Origin: Lachnospiraceae bacterium 10-1
GTDB lineage: Bacteria > Bacillota > Clostridia > Lachnospirales > Lachnospiraceae
Direction of reading: 5' to 3'
Length of the DNA: 64,000 nucleotides
Assembly: GCA_000403495.2 (NCBI GenBank)
Contig: KE159818.1
Location: forward strand, 124,001-188,000
Positions within the stretch are counted from its first letter, which is position 1; every line of letters starts with the position of its first letter. The notes beneath the pieces were generated by a model that made no database searches, was not told where the DNA came from, and saw only the letters and a program-made list of their open reading frames with translations. The translations under genes were made by a program, and so were the position numbers. Shown here piece after piece: positions 16,081 to 20,954 of the stretch.

Positions 16081-17820
16081 TCACTGCACCTGATACACAT
16101 ACAGGGTATAGGGTGATGATTCATGGGTATAGGTTCCTGCATGCAAAAGCCCGGCCTCCCGGGCATTGGTTAATTTTACCCTGGAAAAGATAAATTCACC
16201 TCCAAGGGCCTGAAAGGCATCCACATTAATGTAAATGTCCTGTTCCTGTACCTGATAAGTACGAAAGCCATTTACAATAGAAAGATCCGTTCCGGAATAC
16301 AAATAGGCTCTTGCTCCCCAATCATCAAAATATATTCTGCTCTCCTCAACCCGCTCAAGAGCCGGTGCAATTATCCTGCGGAAAGCTTCTTTATATTCCT
16401 GAGAATAAAATCCAAGATAACCGTCTAAAGTGGAAATACCATTATATTCCAGAGTAGCAGGGTAAAATCCATATGCCGCAGACCATTCCCCCTTATAGCC
16501 CAAATCCTGTTTCGCCTCTTCAAACAATTCTGCTGAGTAAAACTCCCCATAACTTAACTGATCCGTGGTTTTTCCTTTAAGTAAATGGTACGCCTGACTA
16601 TAACAGGTATGATACAAATCATTATAACGTGTTCCGGAAAGTACAATAATGCAGACAGCAAATAAGGCAAGCACATCTGCAAAGATTTTCATGCTCTTTC
16701 TCTGGCTGTCGTATAACCGTTTCAGTACAAGAAAAAAAGCGGCATACCAGATAAAAGGGCTGAAAAATATGGTTCTGTTAAACTGCCAGCCGGTCAGAGG
16801 CGGACAAATGGTTTCTATTACTCTTCTAAACCCCTCCCAATAATAAATCCCGTAAACTACACTGTTAAAAACAAGCACCAGCATGAGGAGATTATACAAA
16901 TCATGGAAAATTCCTTTAAATTCTTTCTTTTTTATATAAGTTAAGTTCAAATAAATAAAGTAAATCATGCATGCCGGCATAATCAGATATTTATGCATAC
17001 TCTCCGCATGAAACATTCCATTTACAAATACATCTCCTATGGTCTTTATAATTTCTTTTGCAGTAAAACTCCCTTCCTGCATAGTGGTGCGGATTGTTAT
17101 TTCATCACTTAACAGCATTGTTCCAAACAACCTGTATTCGAAGGCAATGCATCCGGCCGACAGCACACAAACAGCAAGAAAAATCCTGCCTGGAAAGCGC
17201 CTGTCCTTAATCCACAGCCAGATTAAGGAAACTGCCATATAGGCCAGGATAAACAATCCAAAATAGGAAAAATAGGATAAAAACGGATAAAAAAATAATG
17301 CCGCATACCATTTAAAAGAAGGGGATTTGTAAAGTTTACGCATCAGATAAATCACAAGAGGTATGGAGGCAAAAGGAATTCCAAAAGCTGGAAATACATT
17401 TAAGATTCCATAAGCAAATCCCATAAGATAAATCAGCGGCTTATAAACCTCATATTTTTCTCCATACATATCTTTTGCCAAAAGAATGCATGAAAACAAT
17501 GCAATGATTATTTTAAGCAGATACCCTGTAACATAGGCCGGATAATCCGGCAGAATCATGTAAAGCATTGTATATAAAGAGAATTCCGACGGAAGTACAT
17601 CTCTGCTGATTCCGCCTAAAAATGGAACATCCACTCCATGAGTCCAGAAAGTATTTGTACTTTTCATCATTTGAAACTGCGGTGTAAATAAATCAAGATT
17701 GTCATGAACAGCTATAATACTGTCCTTTCCGCAGATAAAAAACACGCCTCCGGCAAATATAAGAAAACCGGCAATGATCACAAGATACCAGTGCGAAATC
17801 AGTTTTTTCAATTCTTTCAA
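16081..17820 (-). CDS. Polytopic membrane protein, DUF6044 (YkoS)-like
   Basis: A 579-residue membrane protein. About ten hydrophobic segments span residues 12-400, followed by a soluble C-terminal domain of about 150 residues (TRYNDLYHTCYSQAYH onward). The N-terminal loop after helix 1 contains VHDNLDLF, the conserved acidic loop of DUF6044/YkoS proteins; this resembles the extracytoplasmic acidic loop of GT-C glycosyltransferases. It starts with TTG, overlapping the stop of the glycosyltransferase gene by 4 bp (TTGA), as in the ykoT-ykoS pair of Bacillus. The pair probably moves a lipid-linked sugar to a surface polymer. That role is inference; the family is uncharacterised. Confidence 0.75.
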   Translation of the reverse strand: MKELKKLISHWYLVIIAGFLIFAGGVFFICGKDSIIAVHDNLDLFTPQFQMMKSTNTFWTHGVDVPFLGGISRDVLPSEFSLYTMLYMILPDYPAYVTGYLLKIIIALFSCILLAKDMYGEKYEVYKPLIYLMGFAYGILNVFPAFGIPFASIPLVIYLMRKLYKSPSFKWYAALFFYPFLSYFSYFGLFILAYMAVSLIWLWIKDRRFPGRIFLAVCVLSAGCIAFEYRLFGTMLLSDEITIRTTMQEGSFTAKEIIKTIGDVFVNGMFHAESMHKYLIMPACMIYFIYLNLTYIKKKEFKGIFHDLYNLLMLVLVFNSVVYGIYYWEGFRRVIETICPPLTGWQFNRTIFFSPFIWYAAFFLVLKRLYDSQRKSMKIFADVLALFAVCIIVLSGTRYNDLYHTCYSQAYHLLKGKTTDQLSYGEFYSAELFEEAKQDLGYKGEWSAAYGFYPATLEYNGISTLDGYLGFYSQEYKEAFRRIIAPALERVEESRIYFDDWGARAYLYSGTDLSIVNGFRTYQVQEQDIYINVDAFQALGGEFIFSRVKLTNAREAGLLHAGTYTHESSPYTLYVYQVQ

Positions 17821-18776
17821 CCTTTCTCTCCCCTGCTTTCCCTTCTTAAACGGTTTTCTTTTTCACAGACCAATGTAAACCGATACTCAAAATCCCTTCG
17901 GTTTTTCATTGCCATATTAGATAAAATCAGCCCTGCAAAAAAAGACTGAATAGCCGCCATCATAACAAAACCACAGACAATCAGTGTTGGGAATTTTAAT
18001 ACCAGTCCCGTCCGTAAAAATTCTATCAGAACCGGTATAAAAAACAGGATTGCCATTACTGATAACAAAAGAGCTAAAATACTGAAAAATCCAAAGGGTT
18101 TATAATCACGGTAAAGCCTGAAGATAGTTCCCAGCACCTTAAATCCGTCAGAATAAGTATTAAGCTTTGACACGCTTCCCTCCGGCCTGTCCCTGTATTC
18201 CACAATCACATTATCAATCTGCATATGATTATAGACCGCATGAATGGTCATCTCCGTTTCAATCTCAAATCCCTTGGAAAGCACAGGGAATGTTTTCACA
18301 AATCCATAGCTGAAAGCCCGGAATCCGGTCATAATATCCTTCACCTTGCATCCAAATAAGTGATTGATGCTGGCTCTTACCAAAGAATTTCCCATATTAT
18401 GAAATGGTCTTTTATTTTCCTCAAAATAAGTGGAAGAAAGGCGGTCACCTACCACCATGTCCGCATTATGATTTAATACCTTGTCCACCATCTCTGGTGC
18501 AAATTCCATAGGGTATGTGTCATCCCCATCCACCATAATATAACACCGGGCCTCTATTTCCCGAAACATCCTTCTGATCACATTGCCCTTTCCCTGCATA
18601 TATTCCTTGCGGACAACTGCCCCCTCTGCTTGCGCTATCTGGGCTGTCTGGTCTGTGGAATTATTGTCATATACATAAATAACTGCCTCCGGCAGGGCTG
18701 CTTTTGTGTCTTTGATTACCTTGGCAATTGTTTTTTCCTCGTTATAACAAGGAATTAAAACTGCAATTTTATCCAT
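17817..18776 (-). CDS. Family 2 glycosyltransferase with C-terminal membrane anchor
   Basis: A dolichyl/undecaprenyl-phosphate-mannose-synthase-like enzyme of 319 residues. The GT2 domain shows VLIPCYNEEKTI, the nucleotide-sugar DGDDTYP motif and TGFRAFSYGF. Two hydrophobic segments follow (about residues 225-250 and 262-290). It would transfer a sugar to undecaprenyl phosphate at the inner membrane. I start at the ATG at 18776 with AGAAGGA upstream rather than an in-frame GTG at 18800. It is coupled by a 4-bp overlap to the DUF6044 gene. A possible own promoter sits at 18824-18852, so it may be only partly dependent on the upstream switch. Confidence 0.88.
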   Translation of the reverse strand: MDKIAVLIPCYNEEKTIAKVIKDTKAALPEAVIYVYDNNSTDQTAQIAQAEGAVVRKEYMQGKGNVIRRMFREIEARCYIMVDGDDTYPMEFAPEMVDKVLNHNADMVVGDRLSSTYFEENKRPFHNMGNSLVRASINHLFGCKVKDIMTGFRAFSYGFVKTFPVLSKGFEIETEMTIHAVYNHMQIDNVIVEYRDRPEGSVSKLNTYSDGFKVLGTIFRLYRDYKPFGFFSILALLLSVMAILFFIPVLIEFLRTGLVLKFPTLIVCGFVMMAAIQSFFAGLILSNMAMKNRRDFEYRFTLVCEKENRLRRESRGEKG

Positions 18777-18823
18777 TTGGATGTTCCTTCTTTCTTTCAC
18801 AAATATGGCACACTTCCTTTGTT

Positions 18824-18852
18824 ATTTTATCAGAGTTTCCAAGGGAAGTCTA
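18824..18852 (-). promoter_or_regulatory. Possible promoter for the glycosyltransferase pair
   Basis: Minus strand: -35 TAGACT (18847-18852, overlapping the lipoprotein stop), 17-bp spacer, -10 TAAAAT (18824-18829) preceded by TGA, an extended -10. If active it would partly uncouple the glycosyltransferase genes from the invertible promoter upstream. Confidence 0.45.
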
Positions 18853-19305
18853 GTTATGAATTTCCCTTACATTCCAGTCATTTCCACAGCGCCAGGGACT
18901 ATCCATCCTAACATACATAATATCATTTTCCCCCGTTTTTAAAATCAGGTGATAACCTTCCTTGTTATCCGCACAAAAAAACGCACTGCCTTTTTGATAA
19001 TTTATATTAAATCCTTTTTGGTAACATGCCGCTGCATATTTATTAAATTCCCCTTCATGTATTTCCGCAACTGACACTGCAAACCCATATTCTGACTCCC
19101 ATTCTACCCTGCCTAAGTCAAATTCGGGCTCCGGAATCAAGGATGCCATTTCATTTTCAGGCCAATAAGATTTTTCATAATCCTTTCCCCATAGAATACC
19201 CATCGCATTTGACGGAACGCTTTTACCGCCTCCGCTGCTTGCACACCCTGTAAAAATCATTCCCCATAGAACAATAATGCAAACACCTTTCCTTATTTTT
19301 CTCAT
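18850..19305 (-). CDS. Predicted lipoprotein, DUF6591-like
   Basis: A 151-residue secreted lipoprotein. The N-terminus has two basic residues, a hydrophobic stretch (VCIIVLWGMIFTG) and a lipobox FTGC at about residues 19-22. The mature part contains LIPEPEFDLGRVEWESEYGFAVSVAEI, KYAAACYQKGF and GYHLILKTGENDIMYVRM, broken here by short loops; this pattern resembles DUF6591 proteins, whose function is unknown. I use the ATG at 19305 with AGGGG upstream instead of an in-frame start at 19341. The 74 bp between the start and the invertible element hold no convincing promoter of their own, so expression may depend on the element being in the other orientation. Confidence 0.75.
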   Translation of the reverse strand: MRKIRKGVCIIVLWGMIFTGCASSGGGKSVPSNAMGILWGKDYEKSYWPENEMASLIPEPEFDLGRVEWESEYGFAVSVAEIHEGEFNKYAAACYQKGFNINYQKGSAFFCADNKEGYHLILKTGENDIMYVRMDSPWRCGNDWNVREIHN

Positions 19306-19378
19306 TCGTATTCCCCTGCCTTTCACACAAAAAGCCGCCACGCAGAATTTGCGCCCACAAGCTTCTTCCCTTACAAAT

Positions 19379-19518
19379 TACGTAAAATTGTACTTTTACA
19401 AAGGAAAGTATTTTTGCCCATAAGGAGCAGGAATCAGTTGGCAAAAGGCATTTTTTGTAGTAAAATGCAAACCAGTTAGGGAAAATATGTACAGTTTGTA
19501 AAAGTACACCTTTACAAA
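19379..19518. repeat. Putative invertible DNA element (inverted recombination sites)
   Basis: Two 24-bp dyad sites face each other. The right site (19495-19518) is TTTGTAAA, eight bases, TTTACAAA: a perfect 8-bp dyad. The left site (19379-19402) is TACGTAAA, eight bases, TTTACAAA. Comparing one site with the reverse complement of the other gives a perfect 14-bp match (TGTACTTTTACAAA at 19389-19402 against 19495-19508) plus a matching GTAAA two bases further on. The central dinucleotide is GT on the left and AC on the right, identical but inverted, which for a serine recombinase predicts inversion of the roughly 116 bp between the centres. The right site ends 6 bp from the stop of the adjacent recombinase gene. 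Confidence 0.75.
19438..19466 (+). promoter_or_regulatory. Promoter inside the invertible element
   Basis: -35 TTGGCA (19438-19443), 17-bp spacer, -10 TAAAAT (19461-19466); each hexamer is one mismatch from consensus. As sequenced it points rightward into the 3' end of the recombinase gene (antisense). After inversion the -10 would map near 19431-19436 on the minus strand, firing into the lipoprotein gene with a leader of about 120 nt. A 7-bp stem (GCATTTT with AAAATGC) overlaps the spacer and -10. Confidence 0.65.
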
Positions 19519-19524
19519 TTTTTA

Positions 19525-20173
<649 letters not shown>

Positions 20174-20213
20174 TATAAAAGTTATTATTTACTAAAATCC
20201 GGAGAGAAAACAA

Positions 20214-20954
20214 ATGATTCGAATAATTTTGGTAGCTGTCTTTGTAGTTTTATTTTTAGTTCTCAGTATTCCCCTTTTGATTACTGAATGGATTATTGGC
20301 AAATTCAATATGGACCTGAAAAACAAAAGTTCCCTTGCCATTGTAAACTGGGCGTTCAGGGTATGTCTCTTTTTTGCAGGAACCACTGTTATTGTAAAAG
20401 GAGAAGAAAATGTACCAAAGGATGAGCCTGTGCTTTATATTGGAAACCACAGAAGCTACTTTGACATTTTAATTACTTATGTGCGGGTTCCCAGACCTAC
20501 CGGCTACATTGCAAAACGTGAGATGCTTAAGTGGCCACTTTTAGTTAGCTGGATGAAAAATCTGCACTGCCTGTTTTTAGACCGGAATGATGTAAAGCAG
20601 GGGCTTAAGATCATTCTCACTGCAATTGAAAAAATAAAATCAGGCATATCCATCTGTATTTTTCCGGAAGGCACCAGGAACAAAGAGAATCATACCTTTA
20701 TGGAATTTCACGAGGGAAGCTTTAAAATTGCCTCTAAGTCAGGATGTCCTATTATTCCCATGACAATTTACAACTCTGCTGATATTTTTGAAGATCACCT
20801 TCCAAAAATCAAAAAAACACAGGTGATCTTAGAGTACGGAAAACCTATTTATGTTAAAGATCTGGCCAAAGAAGATCAGAAGAAAATTGGTGCATATACC
20901 AAAAATATTATTATGGAAACTTATTTTAAAATCAAAGAAGAAGCAGGTCAATAA
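20214..20954 (+). CDS. plsC: 1-acyl-sn-glycerol-3-phosphate acyltransferase (PlsC family)
   Basis: Adds the second acyl chain to lysophosphatidate in phospholipid synthesis. 246 residues. An N-terminal membrane helix (residues 2-20) is followed by the HX4D motif NHRSYFD and the FPEGTRN substrate motif; IIPMTIYN matches the fourth conserved block. The ATG has GGAGAG eight bases upstream. It is a single-gene unit: divergent from the recombinase gene, with a clear promoter and a terminator that overlaps its stop codon. Confidence 0.92.
   Translation: MIRIILVAVFVVLFLVLSIPLLITEWIIGKFNMDLKNKSSLAIVNWAFRVCLFFAGTTVIVKGEENVPKDEPVLYIGNHRSYFDILITYVRVPRPTGYIAKREMLKWPLLVSWMKNLHCLFLDRNDVKQGLKIILTAIEKIKSGISICIFPEGTRNKENHTFMEFHEGSFKIASKSGCPIIPMTIYNSADIFEDHLPKIKKTQVILEYGKPIYVKDLAKEDQKKIGAYTKNIIMETYFKIKEEAGQ

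Follow-up and report, generated by a model that had tools for sequence, protein, structure and literature searches.

The question raised by this locus is whether a stand-alone serine recombinase gene of Lachnospiraceae bacterium 10-1 serves a promoter switch of its own and which gene such a switch controls. The analysed stretch of DNA (the window: 64,000 nt, contig KE159818.1, positions 124,001–188,000) had been proposed, in a preliminary description, to contain an invertible promoter next to this gene, upstream of a lipoprotein gene and two surface-glycan genes. The results presented here make a genuine invertible-promoter cassette very probable. With good confidence, the locus can be regarded as a self-contained phase-variation switch, in which the recombinase would invert a 116-bp promoter segment, setting the lipoprotein gene ON or OFF.

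A repeat search confirms two inverted 24-bp dyad sites (Table 1), which belong to a longer inverted repeat (19375–19402 and 19495–19522, 82% over 28 nt). When both are written in the same orientation, the two arms, GTAAAATTGTACTTTTACAAA and GTAAAGGTGTACTTTTACAAA, agree at 19 of 21 positions; the perfect 14-bp stretch common to both arms is TGTACTTTTACAAA, and the central dinucleotide, already singled out in the preliminary description, is GT in both sites, in inverted orientation. The outer half of the distal site is degenerate and matches the proximal outer half poorly. None of 300 dinucleotide shuffles attains the repeat score of 15 obtained here. A search of the window with the right (proximal) site, allowing up to 3 mismatches, gives a single place, compared to zero in 100 shuffles. 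Across the genome (4.57 Mb), the site pattern is present only at the two sites of this locus when up to 2 mismatches are allowed (one more place appears at 3 mismatches), and the DNA of the segment occurs once. The dyad centres are 116 bp apart, and the right site ends, exactly as first described, 6 bp before the recombinase stop codon, which starts at 19525.

Between the sites lies the previously noted promoter-like sequence TTGGCA-17-TAAAAT, with 10 of 12 consensus matches and a score of 12.3 in the + direction vs 5.6 in the opposite one. Promoter-like matches are frequent in this AT-rich stretch (9 found vs 5.2 expected), this one being among the two best. No promoter-like site on the - strand was detected by the promoter scan between 19305 and 19518; after inversion, the calculated position of the promoter would be about 19459–19431 on this strand, aimed at the lipoprotein gene. 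The locus thus has the makeup of an inverton, that is, inverted repeats around a promoter (recognised by consensus) aimed at a neighbour gene in one orientation. A terminator formed by the proximal site was considered and set aside, the fold being non-significant (z -0.92).

Table 1. Features of the recombinase locus and its surroundings in the window.
Feature	Position	Strand	Basis or remark
DUF6044 membrane protein gene	16081..17820	-	GT-C-like fold; probably outside the switch
GT2 glycosyltransferase gene	17817..18779	-	usual plsC neighbour in the genus; probably outside the switch
GT2 promoter-like sequence TAGACT-17-TAAAAT, extended -10	18852..18824	-	counterpart in relatives without the insertion
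Lipoprotein gene, 151 aa	18850..19305	-	likely target; DUF6591 match; lipobox-like TGC by motif
Inserted unit (lipoprotein, switch, recombinase) between plsC and GT2	18853..20144 (ends approximate to a few bases)		intergenic alignments
Distal recombination site	19379..19402 (centre 19390/19391)		inverted relative to the proximal site; 2 mismatches to the site pattern
Segment proposed to invert, 116 bp	19391..19506		inverted repeat here; inversion of homologous segments between relatives
Sigma-A-type promoter TTGGCA-17-TAAAAT	19438..19466	+	consensus match only; aims at the recombinase 3' end (OFF)
Proximal recombination site, 24-bp dyad	19495..19518 (centre 19506/19507)		repeat search and genome pattern scan
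Serine recombinase gene, 200 aa, proposed invertase	19525..20127	-	PF00239

The recombinase contains the PF00239 domain (97.5 bits over residues 4–148) and, in an intact reading frame, the sequences YARVSS at residue 7 and DRLGRN at residue 68, which we take to be the intact catalytic motifs of small serine recombinases; domain and motifs together place it in this resolvase/invertase group. The nearest solved structures are those of Sin/Tn552 (E 3.5e-32), compared to 1.2e-14 for the best entry named DNA-invertase, so that, by E values and not by a tree, its closest kin are not Gin and Hin. The match to the Mpi model, NCBIfam NF009949, reaches 40.1 bits against a cut-off of 272, and instead of the many dispersed target sites of the Mpi family there are only the two local ones at up to 2 mismatches. 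A master-invertase model was set aside given the lack of additional sites in the genome. The same genome encodes a paralogue (63%; L002, G000:C1:1204755-1205330) with inverted sites of its own, in which the central dinucleotide AT is palindromic; its half-sites differ from those of the recombinase studied here, as expected if the switches are independent. At another place in this genome (L003/L004, G000:C11:483077-484490), two recombinases of the family are encoded in tandem, with no adjoining inverted repeat of the kind searched for.

The relatives of the recombinase were collected from a scan with one genome per species (the best 80 of 589 taken; by their titles, mostly Clostridia, with Lachnospiraceae and Oscillospiraceae where a family is named, and one Selenomonas), from 37 genomes of the genus and from 397 sampled genomes of the family (72 of these match at E<=1e-75, at 107 places, which yielded 69 new loci). 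The 178 instances collapse to 166 distinct ones, with no identical pair remaining; genes broken at the 3' end were excluded, and 11 loci with less than 250 nt downstream stay outside the repeat counts. An inverted repeat (score >=11) starting within about 60 nt of the recombinase stop is present in 84 of the 155 relatives with at least 250 nt downstream and in none of 155 mononucleotide shuffles (one each); among the first 78 loci, it is found in 45 downstream stretches vs 0 upstream control stretches. The site centres in these relatives are separated by a median of 127 bp (98–231, one at 43), without helical phasing of the spacing, and the first arm contains or adjoins GTGTA or its complement in 66 of 84. 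In 60 of the 155, the gene is not accompanied by a repeat of score >=10; 10 of these 60 have a single dyad of the same type (1 of 155 when shuffled). Of the 166 loci, 11 lie on contigs that stop at most 250 nt downstream of the recombinase and one on a contig that stops within the same distance upstream, an excess expected if assemblies break where both forms coexist.

Several loci depart from this arrangement. In L192 (G358:C1:1977300-1983500), two convergent recombinases surround one shared segment with inverted sites and no other gene between them; L192 and L192b, being this segment seen from both sides, were left out of the inverted groups described below. Behind the recombinase of L067 (downstream of 5609) there appear, by eye, to be three dyad sites rather than two, and downstream of the stop in L201 there is a 54-nt imperfect inverted repeat, longer than elsewhere in the family, the arms of which are separated by about 490 nt. 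An Enterococcus plasmid encodes a 52% relative that lacks the inverted repeat typical of the family. The recombinase matches 226 phage records, at best at 65%; the repeat is present in 1 of 12 viral-contig relatives with at least 65% identity and, at a score >=11, in 7 of 67 viral-contig loci, 4 of these 7 without the GTAC core. A phage origin, considered in view of these matches, was set aside (best phage match 65%, repeat in 7 of 67). Three IMG/VR contigs filed as viral (L284, L285 and L291) encode a recombinase that is followed by inverted sites, the cores of which are GTATAC.

Comparison of the stretches downstream of the recombinase reveals inversion between homologous loci of different genomes. 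In six groups, the outer flanks match in direct orientation and the segments only when one of them is reversed: L151 vs L051/L055/L170 (inner identity for L051/L151: inverted 0.99, direct 0.58), L050/L147 vs L052 (L050/L052: 0.86, 0.59), L066 vs L100 (0.77, 0.52), L080 vs L152 (0.70, 0.54), L044/L062 vs L060 (L044/L060: 0.71, 0.53) and L180 vs L188 (0.71, 0.61). Five control pairs in the same orientation give the opposite pattern, direct identity above inverted, and 25 locus pairs share a segment in the same orientation. In L051/L151, the end of the recombinase gene is 99.8% identical and the distal flank 100% identical over 197 bp, the inner comparison extending over 104 bp; the outer half-sites stay and the inner half-sites swap, at the shared TGTGTACGTT. 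Inversion between two inverted sites, the activity that defines DNA invertases, is seen in these six groups of homologous loci, with the recombinase as the presumed catalyst; the locus of strain 10-1 is not among them. The preliminary description had called for related genomes in which the same recombinase adjoins both segment orientations; such genomes exist among the relatives, and the notion of an invertible promoter with a dedicated serine recombinase gains its support from them and not from this locus. Two members of the first group, L055 and L170, may represent a single genome included in two collections. In L151, the switch is followed by an ORF that looks like a C5-cytosine methyltransferase gene, which points to a possible phase-variable methylome.

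The segments are also enriched in promoter-like sequences: the best score is at least 11 in 49 of 95 segments vs 5.8 expected. At a threshold of 10, the 95 segments divide into 15 ON, 40 OFF, 9 ambiguous and 31 without a promoter. Between inverted relatives, the promoter direction flips clearly by score only in L180/L188 (12.5 each way; L188 counted as ambiguous); in L051/L151 (8.9) and L050/L052 (8.1 and 9.9), a promoter-like sequence turns direction below the counting threshold, L066/L100 scores 7.2, and L080/L152 and L044/L060 display no flipped promoter. The next ORF (the longest within reach, picked mechanically, so that a few are short or doubtful) aims away from the segment in 75 of 84 loci and toward it in 8, with none in one; in 54 of the 75, it starts no more than 50 nt from the distal arm, and 48 of the 75 encoded proteins are unlike any other in the set. 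Among the top 25 of 73 Pfam families and of 116 PADLOC families (one protein may match several), the cargo includes TnpB-like proteins (4), IspD-type cytidylyltransferases (3), type IIG restriction-methylation (3), type IV restriction (3), PLD/helicase proteins (2), the O-acyltransferase families MBOAT (2) and Acyl_transf_3 (2), and LRR_5 repeats (2). The switch is followed by a gene matching IS605-type OrfB/TnpB in L041, L045, L060 and L062; between L044/L062 and L060, the segment orientation is opposite.

The prevalence of one orientation, with 40 of the 55 unambiguous promoters of the family aimed at the recombinase 3' end, invites the explanation that the promoter as sequenced also works, giving rise to an RNA antisense to the recombinase gene through which the OFF form would restrain the recombinase and thereby become self-stabilising. 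Such an effect is possible but unlikely, given that the excess of OFF may instead reflect a cost of ON and that the terminator-like fold at the proximal site lacks significance; it is compatible with the phase-switch explanation, and the two would go together.

Which gene the phase switch controls is best approached through the neighbourhood of plsC, a gene present in 34 of 37 genomes of the genus, with 30 loci compared. Excluding strain 10-1 and G003, the GT2 gene is located upstream of plsC, divergently and about 150–530 bp off, in 19 of 28 loci, followed by DUF6044 in 15 of these and by prs in 3 (in one, the stretch ends first); none of the 28 contains a recombinase within the compared stretch, which is short in some. 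A counterpart of the GT2 promoter-like sequence is plain in six aligned relatives and discernible by eye in most of 18, the exceptions being L246, L255 and L258. Alignments of the intergenic regions delimit the recombinase, the switch and the lipoprotein gene as an insertion of about 1.3 kb between plsC and GT2, and the lipoprotein, having been inserted together with the other two, is likely the target, in agreement with the original proposal. Relatives of the lipoprotein are found in 15 other genomes of the 397 in the family (E<=1e-6) and in 1 of 36 other genomes of the genus (E<=0.001); three of the 15 (G107, G288 and G357) have a relative of the recombinase as well, on other contigs.

The proposal that the glycosyltransferase and DUF6044 genes are also controlled fares poorly: GT2 is the usual neighbour of plsC without any recombinase and has kept a promoter-like sequence of its own, and the pair was set aside as the main target on the same grounds. 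The DUF6044 protein has a high-confidence predicted structure that resembles oligosaccharyltransferase subunits and the arabinosyltransferase AftA (TM about 0.4–0.5), and GT2 and DUF6044 are plausibly an envelope glycosylation pair that does not belong to the insertion. No recombinase is present in the 1.5-kb flanks of 29 other DUF6044 loci, a reach too short given 1.7 kb in the window, from a query with the lipoprotein appended. The switch could still act on the pair by read-through from the lipoprotein gene, which is on the same strand as GT2 at a gap of about 70 nt; a scan of 18700–20500 reveals nothing terminator-like between these genes on their strand. With the GT2 promoter-like sequence being present in most relatives without the insertion, this extension appears quite unlikely.

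If the recombinase acts on the adjoining sites, the two sequences might be expected to vary together. After omission of 17 of the 84 loci without a GTNNAC core, the remaining 67 give 51 non-redundant ones at 85% identity, among which half-site similarity correlates with the identity of the C-terminal domain (rho 0.35, p 0.0005) and not with that of the catalytic domain (rho -0.03, p 0.64); these and the following p values come from permutations without correction for phylogeny. In sliding windows, the correlation rises from 0.16 at residues 141–166 to 0.36 at residues 181–200 and is near zero earlier. Residue-base pairs with z >5 are at residues >=145 in 63 of 67 cases, a region that accounts for 430 of 1170 tests. 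The strongest single position, residue 191, explains 0.78 of the variance at half-site position -8; its classes mostly combine glycine with TTTGyAAAA, aspartate with CGAAAA, tyrosine with CA(g/a)AAA and arginine with TCAAAA, with exceptions. By site, the correlation is 0.42 for the proximal, 0.18 for the distal and 0.04 for the distal outer half. The third codon positions of the same codons correlate too (0.23, all half-sites), which indicates that common local ancestry contributes to the signal; after correction, the values are 0.39 for the proximal site (p 0.001), 0.13 for the distal site (p 0.03) and nothing for the distal outer half. Thus, the recombinase seems to read its site via the C-terminus and not via the catalytic domain.

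One orthologous locus was detected, with 94% protein identity, in L030 and L110, which are identical over the 127 nt compared and were taken as one genome in two collections. Both promoter hexamers are kept, and the promoter and proximal site are conserved (104 bp at 90%); the contig ends inside the segment. This locus is OFF as well. Accordingly, the reading of the 10-1 sequence as the OFF form holds, and the inverted form of 19391–19506 that was expected among other isolates was not seen in either of the two genomes with the locus. This shared state and the poor match of the distal outer half to the proximal one would also be explained by a frozen relic, the family inverting while the 10-1 copy is locked OFF through its degenerate distal outer half. 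We consider this improbable: the recombinase frame and motifs are intact, the promoter and proximal site are conserved in L030/L110, where the contig stops within the segment, the outer halves differ also in L051/L151, whose segment occurs either way round, and across the whole family the distal outer half has no link to the recombinase. It is very improbable that the recombinase, despite its best solved-structure matches being to Sin/Tn552 (see the E values above), is a resolvase acting on a res-type pair of sites with an incidental promoter, considering that the sites are inverted rather than direct, that homologous segments occur inverted and are enriched in promoter-like sequences, and that the neighbour gene aims away in 75 of 84 loci.

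Under the phase-switch explanation, the C-terminal domain of the recombinase would bind the two inverted dyad sites, and the enzyme would cut at the central GT dinucleotide and invert the 116 bp between the sites. As sequenced, the single promoter of the segment would direct transcription at the recombinase gene from its 3' side (OFF); after inversion, transcription would run across the distal site into the lipoprotein gene (ON), the start of which would be about 120 nt past the calculated transcription start. The recombinase, the switch and the lipoprotein gene would have arrived as one 1.3-kb unit, with GT2 keeping its own promoter-like sequence.

The small serine recombinases Hin, Gin and Cin act by inversion on dyad sites of roughly 26 bp with a 2-bp centre. 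The 10-1 system shares a recombinase and sites of this type, whereas its recombinase gene is outside the segment, the segment is gene-free and only 116 bp long, and the sequence is nearer to Sin. Inversion by enzymes of the Hin/Gin type requires a Fis-bound enhancer. Mpi of Bacteroides fragilis is a master invertase, a serine recombinase that acts on short inverted sites and turns invertible promoters for surface components. The likeness to Mpi drawn in the preliminary description extends to a serine invertase, short inverted sites and an invertible promoter for a surface component, and it ends at action on many loci: Mpi acts on at least 13 regions (PMC5903667), as opposed to the single pair of sites in the 10-1 genome, 6 bp from the gene. 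The same source places short phase-variable inversions in Clostridia, to which 14 of 15 signature-positive Firmicutes belong, and includes the similarly short RecV switches of Clostridioides difficile; unlike the present enzyme, RecV is a tyrosine recombinase that acts on several loci (PMC5903667). Among the invertons of gut bacteria catalogued with PhaseFinderDC, those of gut Clostridia likewise include invertible promoters that occupy intergenic DNA close to a recombinase gene; in the portion of the article available, the invertases named are tyrosine-type or 'site-specific integrase', and the main text does not contain the word 'serine' (PMC11892184). In a search of open-licence PubMed Central, none of the papers listed appears, from titles and abstract starts, to describe the recombinase-switch family. 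The invertible-promoter cassette is of a known kind, and what was not found described in these papers is its build: a Sin-like local enzyme, a gene-free 116-bp segment, insertion together with cargo, broad occurrence in Clostridia, diverse cargo and an apparently readable specificity.

The case is evenly balanced for a broader hypothesis, under which the locus is one copy of a widespread, little-described modular class of switches in Clostridia. Each would combine a 200-aa serine invertase with its own 100–200-bp invertible promoter, would be mobile with its cargo and would be placed before unrelated genes (those for surface lipoproteins, O-acyltransferases, restriction-modification and other defence, a C5-methyltransferase and TnpB-like proteins), while the C-terminus would diversify by a readable residue-to-base code that keeps several switches in one genome independent. 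Clostridia are major gut bacteria, for which one inverton survey, in its available portion, names tyrosine-type enzymes (PMC11892184). With their paired recombinase and site sequences, the dozens of relatives amount to a natural collection of small invertases, possibly independent of one another, on which the reading of DNA by serine recombinases could be tested. As far as the host is concerned, differences between individual cells in defence, methylation and surface genes would become predictable from sequence.
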